Shown: one piece after another, positions 2,598-14,786 of the stretch
Layout of the letters: each line of letters begins with the position of its first letter
Position numbering within the stretch: position 1 is the first letter of the stretch
Source of the DNA: a virus
Reading direction: 5' to 3' (one strand)
DNA: 20,463 nucleotides
IMG/VR virus record: IMGVR_UViG_3300043436_003442
Coordinates: 1-20,463 of that record
Notes under the pieces: generated by a model
What the model was told of the DNA's origin: nothing
Databases searched by the model: none
Seen by the model: the letters and a program-made list of their open reading frames with translations, nothing else
Position numbers and translations under genes: made by a program

Positions 2598-3042
2598 TTT
2601 GAATCATGCTCCTTGCTGATTTAACGTGACCGGGCTCAACATGCGACCAGCCTACCGATTCCGTCCACTTGATTGTGACCCAACGTAGCGACTTGAGCCG
2701 CTCGATTTGGGCTTGAGTTGCAATGCCAAACGATACTAGCCCCTGCATCATGTCGATCGCTGCTTGCTTGTCGAGGTCAGCATTTTGCACCCGACCGCCA
2801 ACGTCATCGATCCAACCAGCAATCGAGATGCAAAGCTTCCTGATCTGTTCGTCGGATGATTGCTGGCCGATGATGATCGGAGCGTAAACAGCCTCCTCAA
2901 TGGCCCACTGTTTAACCTCGACCACCGGAACCAATCGCTTTACCGTGACAGTCAGCACGTTTATCAAGTCCGCCGCTTGTTGGTCGCTTGTGCCTTGGTA
3001 CTGAGTCTTTTTGAGTTCTTCGATCAATGGTTCGTAATTCAC
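2584..3042 (-). CDS. Small phage protein resembling tail-region proteins of unknown function
   Basis: 152 aa with a GTG start overlapping the desaturase-like gene stop by four bases (GTGA). The opening MNYEPLIEELKKTQYQGTSD followed by QQAADLINVLTV resembles a common phage family whose members start with a short helix, an 'aY.G.sD...A..LN' segment and a helical middle; its function is unknown to me. The C-terminal third (SLRWVTIKWTES) looks like an added strand-rich segment. It is the first gene left of the envelope cassette and precedes the structural genes. The family resemblance is from memory of sequence style. Confidence 0.55.
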   Translation of the reverse strand: MNYEPLIEELKKTQYQGTSDQQAADLINVLTVTVKRLVPVVEVKQWAIEEAVYAPIIIGQQSSDEQIRKLCISIAGWIDDVGGRVQNADLDKQAAIDMMQGLVSFGIATQAQIERLKSLRWVTIKWTESVGWSHVEPGHVKSARSMIQNGVA

Positions 3043-3566
3043 GCTCGCGCCTCAATTCTGGTTGTGACGAAAACAACGTACTCGATGTAACGCCAAAAAC
3101 CGATCGCATCAAAAATCGGATTAAGCATCGGACTCATAACGCAGTATCGGATATGATAGGGCGAACGATGATGCTCGGCATGATGCTTGCACGATTGTAG
3201 GATGCCACATCGTTGAGCCATCGATACCAACCAACCGTTTCGCCCCTTCGAGTGCCCCCAAGCATGGATCTGGTTGGCTTGGGACAAGAACAAAAACGTC
3301 AGCCATGCGTCGCGAGTCGCATTGCAGCAAAGGCACGCGCCACAAGCCAACATCGATGGAATGATGGTTGTGTAATTGCGATGCCAATAAGAGCCCTTCA
3401 GGAATGCGTATTGATCCGAATGGTGGAGTTGGTTTGGCCCACCGATGAGCCTGCCGAAAACCGGCGTATCTTGGTCAAGGTACGAATCCTCCCACCAGTG
3501 AAAAACACCGGCAATAAAGTCAGCCGTTAGGAATGATATGATTACGAACAGGATCCACTCAATCAC
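3039..3566 (-). CDS. CarF/Kua (TMEM189, plasmanylethanolamine desaturase)-like membrane lipid desaturase
   Basis: 175 aa from a GTG at 3566 that overlaps the previous stop (GTGA) and lies 9 nt after GGAGG; an upstream TTG at 3575 would abut the SD and is less likely. The protein has an N-terminal membrane segment (IEWILFVIISFLTADFIAG), a second hydrophobic stretch around residues 70-98, and the family-type histidine pattern: FHWWEDSY (H23), PNQLHHSDQ (H48, H49), H62, NQIHAWGHS (H101, H105), KHHAEHHRSPYH (H128, H129, H132, H133, H138). CarF/Kua enzymes introduce the vinyl-ether double bond of plasmalogens, using His-bound di-iron in membranes. Substrate here is unknown; a generic lipid desaturase is the fallback. 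It lies in a cassette of membrane proteins. Confidence 0.82.
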   Translation of the reverse strand: MIEWILFVIISFLTADFIAGVFHWWEDSYLDQDTPVFGRLIGGPNQLHHSDQYAFLKGSYWHRNYTTIIPSMLACGACLCCNATRDAWLTFLFLSQANQIHAWGHSKGRNGWLVSMAQRCGILQSCKHHAEHHRSPYHIRYCVMSPMLNPIFDAIGFWRYIEYVVFVTTRIEARA

Positions 3567-3775
3567 TTGTTGCAACCTCCGAGCAATTTACCGATCTCAG
3601 TTTGCAACGTCTCAATCTTGGCCCAAAGTTTTTCGCGATCTGATCGACATTCCTGCAAATCGCTTCGCGTGGTTTTCTTTTCTTCGACGAACAAGCGAAA
3701 CAAGATTCCGACCGCTGTGCTTAACGCTGCGACCATGCCCGAGCCGATGATGTAAACCAAGCTTTCCTGAGTCAC
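3563..3775 (-). CDS. Single-pass membrane / coiled-coil protein (holin accessory or spanin-like candidate)
   Basis: 70 aa, GTG start at 3775 overlapping the upstream stop (GTGA). Residues ~8-28 (YIIGSGMVAALSTAVGILFR) form a membrane helix, and residues ~31-65 are charged heptad-like sequence (EEKKTTRSDLQECRSDREKL) suggesting a coiled coil. It ends in GGCNK. This layout is seen in phage lysis-cassette proteins such as haemolysin XhlA-like or inner-membrane spanin-like proteins, but no family-specific motif allows a firm call. Confidence 0.55.
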   Translation of the reverse strand: MTQESLVYIIGSGMVAALSTAVGILFRLFVEEKKTTRSDLQECRSDREKLWAKIETLQTEIGKLLGGCNK

Positions 3776-10187: not shown

Positions 10188-10271
10188 TTGAAACGAAACT
10201 TAAAAAGAGCCGCCCGCCCTCTCGAACGAGCGGCCCCGTGGTAAGTAGCGGACGTTTCAACGCAACTTACC
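10188..10271 (-). promoter_or_regulatory. Leader RNA with hairpin-loop to leader pairing (pseudoknot candidate)
   Basis: Transcript order: an 11-bp stem with one A-A mismatch (GGTAAGTTGCG / CGCTACTTACC, arms 10271-10261 and 10250-10240) with loop TTGAAACGTC; then a GC-rich hairpin with U-run (10234-10202); then CGTTTCAA (10195-10188), which is the exact complement of TTGAAACG in the first loop. The last segment lies just before the U-rich GGAGGG ribosome-binding site of the 91-aa gene. Loop-leader pairing would bridge the terminator, a layout usable for attenuation or translational control. The ~115 nt further upstream (10272-10387) shows no gene. Confidence 0.5.
10202..10234 (-). terminator. 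Intrinsic terminator candidate downstream of the methyltransferase gene
   Basis: GCCGCTC pairs with GGGCGGC (7 bp including one G-U) across a 12-nt loop, followed directly by TCTTTTT in the transcript. It lies about 150 nt downstream of the methyltransferase stop and 40-70 nt upstream of the 91-aa gene. A competing CTCG/CGAG hairpin exists within the loop. Confidence 0.55.
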
Positions 10272-10387
10272 GGCGGTCGATTAGGCTATGCATCCCGGCT
10301 CGTACCGCGCACCAGTTCATTTGGCCGGACTCCCATTGCAAAGAGAAGAATGGGCACCTTTGCCGAGGCGAACCGACCTGAGAAGGA
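10272..10387. other. Gene-free interval after the methyltransferase gene
   Basis: The only open frame is a 16-codon one from ATG (MGVRPNELVRGTSRDA) without an SD, so I do not call it. CCGGC and GCCGG about 25 nt apart could form a weak hairpin. Nothing else is recognised; with 10166-10271 it makes the largest intergenic region here, about 220 nt. Confidence 0.4.
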
Positions 10388-11674
10388 TCAAAACAAACTC
10401 AACTGCCTTGGCTTGTCAGCCTCAGCAGAAATCCTAGCCCTAGCGATCTCGATGTATTCGGCCTCACGTTCGATGCCGATGAACCGAAAACCCTCTGCCA
10501 TCGCCGCTTTGCCGGTCGATCCTGAGCCCATGAAGGGGTCTAGAACGATGCCTTTTGGCGGTGTGATAAGTCGGCATAGGTAACGCATCAGGTCGGTAGG
10601 TTTGACCGTTGGATGAGGGTTGCGGGCTAGCGACGTCCCCTTGTCGCCCTTTCTGTTAGCCCCGTCCGGGCAATCGTATTCGCTTTGGTCGCCGTAGCTG
10701 TTGCGAGTCCGCTTTTCGACTTCCTCAAACGCCCCGCACCCTTCGTCCCGGTCGTCGCGACTTGCTTTAGCGCAGTAAAAAAATCGTGCTGCGCTGCCTC
10801 CGTCATCGTCGTGACCCCGAACTCCAGGATCTCCGCCGAAAACTCCGAAGCATCCTGTTTTGCCCTTTCCTGGCCCTCTGTCGCTTGCTTTGGCTGGCCC
10901 CGTCTCAGGAAACAACGCCAGCACCTCCTCGCTGCCATCGTGGATGAAGTTGGCAGGGAATCGGCCCGATGCCTCACTCATTTCGCCGTTGCGACCTTCG
11001 CCGGTTTTCATGCCGTAAGTGCGTCCAGTGGGGCTATTGAAAACAGGCTGCGGCACACTAGGCGGTTTGCCCTCAATCCTGCACCCATCAATATTCAACC
11101 CGCCCGTTCCGTGTTCGAGTACGTTGGCTGCGACGGTTCCGATGAGGGGCTTGCGGGCTAGGGTAATGGGCTCTAGGGCAGGCTTGATCGATGTGCCCCA
11201 TCCCTCCCATTGCTTAGCTGCTTCGGTAGCGGGGGCGGTAATTGGGTACTCGACATCCCGGACCCATTCGACTTTGTTCGTCACGGTTCCAGGCGCGTTA
11301 GACCGAAACGCCGTACCCACAACCTCCCGCTCTGCCCCTGCCGCCTTGTCGATAGCCTTCGATACATCGAGCGATTTCGGGAACCCCGACCCATATACCC
11401 AAGCGATCATATCGCGGATTTCGAAGCCTGCATCCTCGATCCTTACCGCCATCCTGTGCTGCGTCCTCGTCCCCGCAAAGGCCAACAGGTGGCCTCCTGG
11501 CTTGAGTGCGCGAAGGCATTCGACCCAAACCGCCTCGGTAGGTACGTCATAGTCCCAACGCTTCCCCATAAAGGATAACCCATAAGGAGGATCGGTAACA
11601 ATCGCATCGACCGAGCAATCCGCAAGGGTCTTGAGTACGTCCAGGCAATCGCCGTGGTGTAGCGTGTACCTCAT
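10388..11674 (-). CDS. DNA methyltransferase (DPPY type) with C-terminal clamp-binding motif
   Basis: 428 aa. The order catalytic motif first, SAM motif last marks a beta-class amino-methyltransferase: TDPPYGLSF (DPPY at 28-31), a central variable target-recognition part (residues ~90-345), the HPTVKPTDLM motif at ~350, and the SAM-binding LDPFMGSGSTG (~378-388). DPPY suggests N6-adenine more than N4-cytosine. It likely protects phage DNA from restriction or marks it. The chain ends exactly in QLSLF (424-428), the consensus bacterial sliding-clamp-binding pentapeptide, and a DnaN homologue lies 2 kb upstream in the operon. No restriction nuclease is adjacent. Followed by a terminator candidate. 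Confidence 0.92.
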   Translation of the reverse strand: MRYTLHHGDCLDVLKTLADCSVDAIVTDPPYGLSFMGKRWDYDVPTEAVWVECLRALKPGGHLLAFAGTRTQHRMAVRIEDAGFEIRDMIAWVYGSGFPKSLDVSKAIDKAAGAEREVVGTAFRSNAPGTVTNKVEWVRDVEYPITAPATEAAKQWEGWGTSIKPALEPITLARKPLIGTVAANVLEHGTGGLNIDGCRIEGKPPSVPQPVFNSPTGRTYGMKTGEGRNGEMSEASGRFPANFIHDGSEEVLALFPETGPAKASDRGPGKGKTGCFGVFGGDPGVRGHDDDGGSAARFFYCAKASRDDRDEGCGAFEEVEKRTRNSYGDQSEYDCPDGANRKGDKGTSLARNPHPTVKPTDLMRYLCRLITPPKGIVLDPFMGSGSTGKAAMAEGFRFIGIEREAEYIEIARARISAEADKPRQLSLF

Positions 11675-11675
11675 T

Positions 11676-12071
11676 TCACCAATACCTTTCCTTTACCAGC
11701 CCATCATTGATGAGCCGAGCGTTTAGCGACAATGGAGCGACCTCAAGGATCTTCTCGCCGTTGCTGATCGGTCTGGATGCAACCGGCCAAGCATCGTAAA
11801 TGATGGCCAAAAACCGCCCGTACTTGTCGCGAAACTGCTTGCTCTTTGGAGCCTCGACGGATTGGACGATGACATGCGAAAACAAGTGTTTTGTCACCAT
11901 GCTTACTCGAAGATCCTTTCCCGCCTGCGTCCTCATCTCAGGTGCATCGATGCCGTAAAGCCTCATGCGTTGTTGCGTAAAAGTGTTGAATCCAAGATCG
12001 ATCATTAAATCGAACGTGTCACCGTCGATGACCTCGACAATCTGAGCTTGGTAAATGTGAATTCGACTCAT
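11676..12071 (-). CDS. Thermonuclease (staphylococcal nuclease-like, SNase fold)
   Basis: 131 aa. Family motifs in order: VEVIDGDTFDL (metal-binding Asp17/Asp19 region), MRLYGIDAPEMR (R37, D42, E45) and DKYGRFLAIIY (R86), matching the catalytic Arg-Glu-Arg set of SNase. No signal peptide is evident (MSRIHIYQAQ), so it may act inside the cell, for example in host DNA breakdown. Shares a four-base overlap with the upstream gene and is one base from the methyltransferase start. Confidence 0.9.
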   Translation of the reverse strand: MSRIHIYQAQIVEVIDGDTFDLMIDLGFNTFTQQRMRLYGIDAPEMRTQAGKDLRVSMVTKHLFSHVIVQSVEAPKSKQFRDKYGRFLAIIYDAWPVASRPISNGEKILEVAPLSLNARLINDGLVKERYW

Positions 12072-13700: not shown

Positions 13701-14786
13701 TTAGTTCCTGTTCATTGGCATGATGACGTATTTGGACTCACCGCTGACCCATAACGTAGGCCTTGTAGGATCCTTGCACCACAGGCTAACCTGATCGGTC
13801 TTGTCGAGGCTCTGCAGCCAATCGAGCACGAACCGATAATCCATCGTGATCTCAAAAACCTCTGGAGTCTCAAGCGGTACTGACACCTGAGACCGACCAA
13901 CATCAGCCGCCTTAGCTGCGATCTTGCAAGAGCCATCGCCAAAGCTAAAGACAACGCCGCGAGACTCTTGCTCAGCCGTTACCGATGCTTGGCGAACCGC
14001 CTGCATGAATGGCCCCGCTAGGAATCGGTACTCGATACCATCGGCGGACGGGATAACCGATTGCCAATTTGGGTATCGACCTTCGACCAACCTGGTCTGA
14101 ATCGCCACTTTATCGCCCTTAAACTGGATCGACGACTTGTTGACCGAGATGCCAATAAACCCCTCAGAGCCCTCCAATGAGCGTTTAACGAGCCCAAGAG
14201 CCTTAGTTGGCACAATAGCCGATCCGCCTTCTAAATAGCTTCCTAGATGCAAATCTAGGCCGCTGTAGGCTAATCTCCGCCCATCGGTCGCGATGAGTTC
14301 CAATCGATCGCCACCGGCAACGAAATTAACCCCGCCGAGCTGGTATCGTGTTGAGTCTACGTCAGTAGCAAAATCGACCCGCCGCAAGGCCCCTAGCAGG
14401 CCCGCAGAACCTACCTCGATGCTCTTGCCTTCGATGGCCGAGACTCGCGGGAATTCGCTTGGATTGCGAGCCTGCAAGGTGAAAGAGCCCTCGTCGGTTG
14501 TGATCTCGATCGACCTTTCGTCAGCCTCGATGGTGACCGATTCGGAGCGGGACTCTTTCAGAATCATCCCGACCCTGCGAGGATCCAAAAGAGCCGTACC
14601 AGCCGAGTGTATTTCCTCAGGGATTGCATCGACTACCAGCGACGTTTCGCCATTGGATGCCTCTAGTTGACCCGTCGTCGCATCGATCAGCACGTTTCCA
14701 AGTACGTCTTTGACCTGGCTTGATGCCCCCGATGCTGCGAGATTGAACGACTCCAAAAACTTCGACCTGTTCAAAACAATTTTCAT
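13701..14786 (-). CDS. dnaN: DNA polymerase III beta subunit (sliding clamp)
   Basis: 361 aa from the ATG at 14786 (MKIVLNRSKFLESFNLAASG), near the 366 aa of E. coli DnaN; AGAGG precedes it. Recognisable features: LIATDGRRLAYS in the second domain, EGRYPNWQSVIP in the linker, and the diagnostic C-terminus SKYVIMPMNRN, where VIMPM forms part of the peptide-binding cleft. It forms a dimeric ring tethering polymerases and other clamp clients. Being phage-coded, it likely supplies a clamp for phage replication or captures host polymerase. The methyltransferase downstream carries a clamp-binding tail. No DNA polymerase gene is in the window. A 23-residue N-terminal extension reading to 14855 is rejected. 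Confidence 0.95.
   Translation of the reverse strand: MKIVLNRSKFLESFNLAASGASSQVKDVLGNVLIDATTGQLEASNGETSLVVDAIPEEIHSAGTALLDPRRVGMILKESRSESVTIEADERSIEITTDEGSFTLQARNPSEFPRVSAIEGKSIEVGSAGLLGALRRVDFATDVDSTRYQLGGVNFVAGGDRLELIATDGRRLAYSGLDLHLGSYLEGGSAIVPTKALGLVKRSLEGSEGFIGISVNKSSIQFKGDKVAIQTRLVEGRYPNWQSVIPSADGIEYRFLAGPFMQAVRQASVTAEQESRGVVFSFGDGSCKIAAKAADVGRSQVSVPLETPEVFEITMDYRFVLDWLQSLDKTDQVSLWCKDPTRPTLWVSGESKYVIMPMNRN

Follow-up and report, generated by a model that had tools for sequence, protein, structure and literature searches.

The published consensus of bacterial clamp-binding peptides is QL(S/D)LF (PMC12309361, PMC11139829), as the original prediction for the DNA studied here had correctly assumed. 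PolC, Pol II/IV/V, MutS, Hda and IS transposases share this pentapeptide consensus, which is often located at a flexible C-terminus. PolC of B. subtilis ends in QLSLF (PMC12309361), and IS transposases have gained a clamp-binding motif many times independently (PMC4549789). Unlike the phage enzyme described below, none of these proteins is a DNA methyltransferase. A DNA methyltransferase tethered to a sliding clamp is represented by eukaryotic DNMT1 with its PCNA-binding motif, which methylates newly replicated DNA (PMC9690074). DNMT1 bound to PCNA resembles the tethering proposed here in its mode of work, but it maintains 5-methylcytosine, is an unrelated enzyme and uses a different motif and a different clamp, so that the likeness is one of convergence and not of membership. 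The enzyme of this study shares the PF01555 fold and motif order with the beta-class N6-adenine methyltransferases CcrM, M.HpyAVI, M.BceJIV and M.RsrI, a set of orphan and type II enzymes. In contrast to CcrM-type enzymes, its lineage has larger variable middle segments and, in addition, a tail of the clamp-binding type. DnaN clamps are likewise known from phages, e.g. Rhizobium phage RR1-A, Aurantimonas phage AmM-1 and Arthrobacter and Microcystis phages, and have the same three-domain architecture as the clamp reported here. Clamp-binding motifs and PF01555 enzymes are thus each well known, whereas the literature searched did not yield the two together: in a clamp review of 2024 no word begins with 'methyl' (PMC11139829), and no relevant description of a clamp combined with a methyltransferase in phages was found in the open-licence literature.

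The window, i.e. the whole stretch of DNA analyzed, is a 20,463-bp IMG/VR virus fragment in which 41 ORFs were counted. The methyltransferase gene and its 3'-terminal features are as follows:

10388..11674, minus strand: beta-class N6/N4 DNA methyltransferase of 428 aa, identified by PF01555, PHROG 67 and sequence and fold matches
10391..10405, minus strand: candidate C-terminal clamp-binding motif QLSLF, residues 424-428, from translation, pLDDT and motif statistics
10406..10417, minus strand: basic linker DKPR, residues 420-423, from the AlphaFold2 secondary structure

The ORF starts with ATG and encodes a protein with the C-terminal end ...ARISAEADKPRQLSLF followed by TGA (the C-terminal sequence of the 428-aa product is also given as ...ISAEADKPRQLSLF up to the stop). 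Its assignment to PF01555 is supported by a profile score of 113 bits (cut-off 26.7; E=2e-32), by the catalytic motif IV DPPY at residues 28-31 and by the DPF-G-G-T type SAM motif DPFMGSGST at residues 379-387. It also matched PHROG 67 (E=4e-77) and, by sequence as well as by fold, three beta-class enzymes of known structure (CcrM, M.HpyAVI and M.BceJIV). The structural model suggests an ordinary beta-class fold with a short flexible tail, and site-specific methylation is predicted. Pfam scans of the window proteins, the smallest ORFs excepted, recognized no restriction endonuclease partner. Genes in the neighborhood encode a DnaB-type helicase, a replication initiator, RecT, an exonuclease VIII-like protein, RusA and an SNase-like nuclease. 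The window also carries an unusual phage cargo gene with a lipid desaturase domain (3039-3575, minus strand; PF10520, E=2e-39).

Translation of the minus-strand ORF confirmed that the methyltransferase ends in QLSLF. The position originally assigned to these codons, 10388-10402, is one codon off, since 10388-10390 is the stop codon. The pentapeptide fits the pattern Q-phi-x-[L/M]-[F/L] exactly and occupies the extreme C-terminus. In the AlphaFold2 model, residues 424-428 lie beyond the last helix (405-419), from which they are separated by the DKPR linker, and have pLDDT values below 50; the C-terminus carrying the motif is therefore presumably flexible. Because the linker to the last helix comprises only four residues, docking of the tail while the enzyme is on DNA is sterically unproven. 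A chance origin of the pentapeptide in this methyltransferase is, judged from the sequence, very unlikely. Short motifs easily arise, and about 0.7 occurrences of QxxLF anywhere in the window proteins are expected from composition, but the corresponding expectation for the 41 ORFs is 0.0045 for a C-terminal QxxLF and 4.6e-5 for a C-terminal QL[SD]LF, and the motif is enriched at the level of the family as well. QxxLF was absent at any position from the other ORFs of the window (41 ORFs).

Among relatives of the methyltransferase at 55-67% identity, QLSLF is kept in four other phages (L001, L056, L059, and L087). Three relatives (L009, L015, and L027) have QPTLFD, and the variants QLTLL, QLELL, QVSLF and QQGLF are scattered over further ones, while the majority lack a strict motif. 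The last 153 bp of the four QLSLF genes are about 93% identical at the DNA level, although the whole proteins are only about 60% identical, which is explained by the mosaic middle of the gene. This closeness of the 3'-end reflects shared ancestry, and we therefore rejected these four relatives as independent evidence. Conservation of the tail in close homologues, on which the original prediction was made to depend, is consequently found only in part: the tail is kept where the 3'-end is close, and most homologues in the 55-67% range are without it. The strict motif is absent from about 82% of the distinct methyltransferase tails. Hence, the tail appears dispensable for methylation as such. It was also absent from 14 of 15 homologues of isolated phages, including every sampled mycobacteriophage, Klebsiella and Salmonella phage enzyme; the exception is Cylindrospermopsis phage Cr-LKS3, the homologue of which carries QPDLF. 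About 20 PF01555 enzymes of sampled cellular genomes outside the phage family did not contain the motif, and the one match belonged to a prophage-type enzyme.

Recurrence was evaluated in a comparison sample of several hundred relatives with 141 distinct methyltransferase tails. Within the last 30 residues, QxxLF occurred in 5 out of 45 distinct tails of type A, the type of the window enzyme, and in 12 out of 57 tails of type B, compared to 0.07 and 0.36 expected from shuffling. The respective numbers for control ORFs were 12 out of 1575 and 4.6. The motif thus recurs in the methyltransferase family beyond chance, though in a patchy manner. [LM]F was present in 51 of the 141 distinct tails, and Gln was found at position -3 in 25 of these 51 versus 2.6 expected, at -4 in 4, and at -2 in 1 (binomial p for -3 about 4e-19; Fisher test against control tails 3e-9). 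Thr, Ser and Asp are abundant immediately before Leu, matching the published motif profile. It is considered unlikely that the tail has a role other than clamp binding, for instance in packing against the enzyme or as a protease signal at the C-terminus. Many homologues indeed have a hydrophobic LF or LL end without Gln, but this role is opposed by the enrichment of Gln exactly at -3 and nowhere else, by a location often 1-16 residues short of the protein end, which is ill-suited to a C-terminal degron, and by the predicted lack of structure of the tail.

On trees calculated without the tail, the trait changed state at least 10 times in type A, where 17 of 102 are positive, and at least 11 times in type B, where 31 of 86 are positive. 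The trees were built quickly with FastTree, and the total of at least 21 changes gives gains and losses together. Short linear motifs behave in this way, turning over repeatedly within flexible tails, and the pattern mirrors, by analogy, the situation in IS transposases. Since phage methyltransferases acquired the tail many times, they probably ride the replication machinery and mark new DNA.

The phage has its own sliding clamp, as originally predicted, encoded about 2 kb from the methyltransferase gene:

13701..14786, minus strand: DnaN-type sliding clamp of 361 aa with the peptide pocket kept, identified by TIGR00663 and PF00712/PF02767/PF02768

It scored 168.9 bits against TIGR00663 (cut-off 137.65) and matched all three Pfam clamp domains. 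The AlphaFold2 model has a pLDDT of 90.4, and its fold agrees with the E. coli and Pseudomonas clamps with a TM of about 0.9 (Foldseek); complexes of the E. coli clamp with AcQLALF and AcQADLF are among the top matches. Overall identity to E. coli DnaN is 22%, yet 10 of the 12 subsite-I residues, taken from the pocket residue list in PMC11139829, are identical (R152, L155, T172, G174, R176, L177, P242, V247, V360, and M362; p about 1e-5). P363 and M364 are likewise kept. Changes in the pocket region from the E. coli to the phage clamp are H175R, R246S, N320D, Y323F, V344T and R365N, and subsite II is partly changed, which, like the short linker, leaves some doubt about docking. The peptide cleft, without which the original prediction could not have stood, is therefore present in the phage clamp. 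In sequence, the identity of this clamp to those in phage records stays below 60% throughout, with 22-28% among the matches listed, and the clamp falls into an environmental clade seen in L081-L093.

Another idea is that the enzyme uses its tail to block the clamps of the host, competing with Pol III and repair polymerases and thereby slowing host replication during takeover. A precedent exists in SocB of Caulobacter, which binds the clamp and blocks elongation (PMC9690074). We regard this as distinctly improbable, because a blocker need not be a methyltransferase, whereas the catalytic motifs are intact in every carrier of the tail, and because a phage that depends on a DnaN-type clamp of its own would be harmed by such inhibition.

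The methyltransferase gene of the window lies in an exchangeable locus beside dnaN with the following borders:

11676..12071, minus strand: gene of an SNase-like nuclease (PF00565)
10200..10380, minus strand: conserved structured non-coding element with a terminator-like hairpin, from alignment and covariation

In phages with related clamps (L081-L088), different PF01555 enzymes are found at this one site between the SNase-like gene, which is common to all of them, and the non-coding element. The exchange site corresponds to window positions 10388-11676, is in the same place in L081-L088 and harbors either methyltransferase or helicase-methyltransferase modules. Type A ends in QLSLF at this locus (window and L087), and type B enzymes are 319 or 347 aa long and terminate with QPTLFD (L081, L082, L083, L085, L086, and L088). 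A third type, C, of 268-278 aa ends in QGVLF and occurs in a more distant clamp group; in L009 and L027 it adjoins type-A enzymes ending in QPTLFD. In L084 and L093 the site is occupied by a helicase-methyltransferase fusion with APTLFD, lacking the Gln, followed by a short extension. More generally, fusions in clamp-bearing phages keep a near-terminal [A/M]P[S/T/V]LFD, i.e. the motif without its first Gln (L084:12870-15410, L093, L101, L103, L251:37416-39947, and L249:34595-37204). An isolated phage, Microcystis phage Mae-JY04, has a PF01555 enzyme adjoining dnaN that ends in QIDLFGAVA (L252:3758-5194, minus strand); this ORF is carried as hypothetical in the annotation.

Beyond the exchanged modules, the sequences become homologous again at the stop codon of the methyltransferase, and the tails in the group of the window keep module-specific codons. 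The tail therefore travels with the module in this group, for which recombination of the tail together with the backbone of the phage was considered and rejected. In the group of L009, L119 and L107, types A and B have similar tail codons, so that local exchange is possible there. The non-coding element directly 3' of the stop codon showed compensatory changes on both sides in 14 of 37 predicted pairs and had no Rfam match at the gathering threshold. It was also detected in L081, L083-L087, L093, L009, L101, L103, L107, L119, L120, L001 and L059. Immediately downstream of a phage-type dnaN, some phages have a PcfK-like gene (PF14058) whose product terminates with QLSLFD or QQMSLF (L125:3051-3470, L126:3051-3422, L127, L128, L130:9755-10156, L131, and L132). 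From its sequence, the product is a candidate for a second clamp client encoded beside the clamp.

Raw counts gave the tail in 13 of 20 methyltransferases in clamp-bearing loci versus 6 of 81 elsewhere, but this association is not claimed because it rests on redundant, related phages. After removal of similar tails, the strict motif was present in 4 out of 15 cases with a phage clamp nearby and in 21 out of 126 without, and phylogenetically independent pairs, few of which were available, did not reveal an association. The view of the tail as a companion of the phage's own clamp, as it was first proposed, is consequently not supported as a rule: the suggested comparison of phages with and without dnaN found the tail in both, on phage contigs without a detected clamp as well as in Pseudomonas prophages of genomes with a single clamp gene, with no tree-controlled association. 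Prophage-type enzymes in cellular genomes carry QLDLF, QRDLF and QLSLF in Pseudomonas and QGSLF in Acidovorax, and clamp matches were confined to one gene in each of 13 genomes searched. If the tail works in these prophages, it must therefore use the host clamp. Given tails in phages and prophages without dnaN, the general statement has to refer to the clamp rather than to the phage clamp.

A rival view, to which these data lend some weight, is that the tail is a real clamp-binding motif with the host clamp as its main partner, the phage dnaN being incidental. It is favored by the strict motifs on phage contigs without a detected clamp, by the tailed prophage enzymes in Pseudomonas and Acidovorax genomes with a single host dnaN, by the lack of a tree-controlled association and by the near-universality of the motif across bacterial clamps (PMC4549789). 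We hold it to be somewhat less than evenly probable, since all eight unfused methyltransferases beside dnaN in close relatives of the window phage carry the Gln motif and the pocket is kept in the phage clamp. Searches of whole contigs detected PF02767 in 3 of 50 and in 7 of 36, and many IMG/VR contigs are fragments, which makes the absence of a clamp uncertain. For the window, the phage clamp, encoded 2 kb away and with its pocket kept, is the likely partner. The best reading of the sequence data would be a methyltransferase able to use either the phage or the host clamp.

Position-specific recurrence, the low-confidence C-terminus of the model and the pocket kept on the clamp support that the tail behaves as a clamp-binding motif. 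Independent support comes from the replacement of one tailed methyltransferase by another at the site beside dnaN. We consider it probable that the enzyme is a clamp-tethered, replication-coupled methyltransferase, the tail of which docks in the DnaN ring and allows early methylation of phage DNA. Gln424, Leu427 and Phe428 would insert into the hydrophobic pocket of the ring, which would be the phage's own and probably also that of the host. With the ring as its anchor behind the polymerase, the enzyme would meet sites on new phage DNA at once and repeatedly, and progeny DNA might thus be methylated before host restriction cuts. Physical binding, the choice of clamp and the benefit of replication-coupled methylation are what we infer for this system. 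Coupling of methylation to the fork, which had been predicted at the outset, would be soundly deduced from the sequence, and protection against restriction is the most likely purpose of methylating new phage DNA early. Loss of the five tail residues is predicted to uncouple methylation from replication while leaving catalysis untouched.

Beyond this phage, we lean slightly towards clamp tethering as a general, convergent strategy of phage methyltransferases, in which modules that are unrelated or only distantly related repeatedly gain QxxLF and would thereby methylate phage DNA at the fork, and thus towards a prokaryotic counterpart of DNMT1-PCNA. If true, this would explain how phage methylation outpaces host restriction on fast-replicating DNA. 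It would also add a new class of clients to the bacterial clamp and provide a bacterial parallel to DNMT1-PCNA coupling, and a C-terminal Qxx[LM]F may serve as a sequence flag for further replication-coupled phage enzymes.
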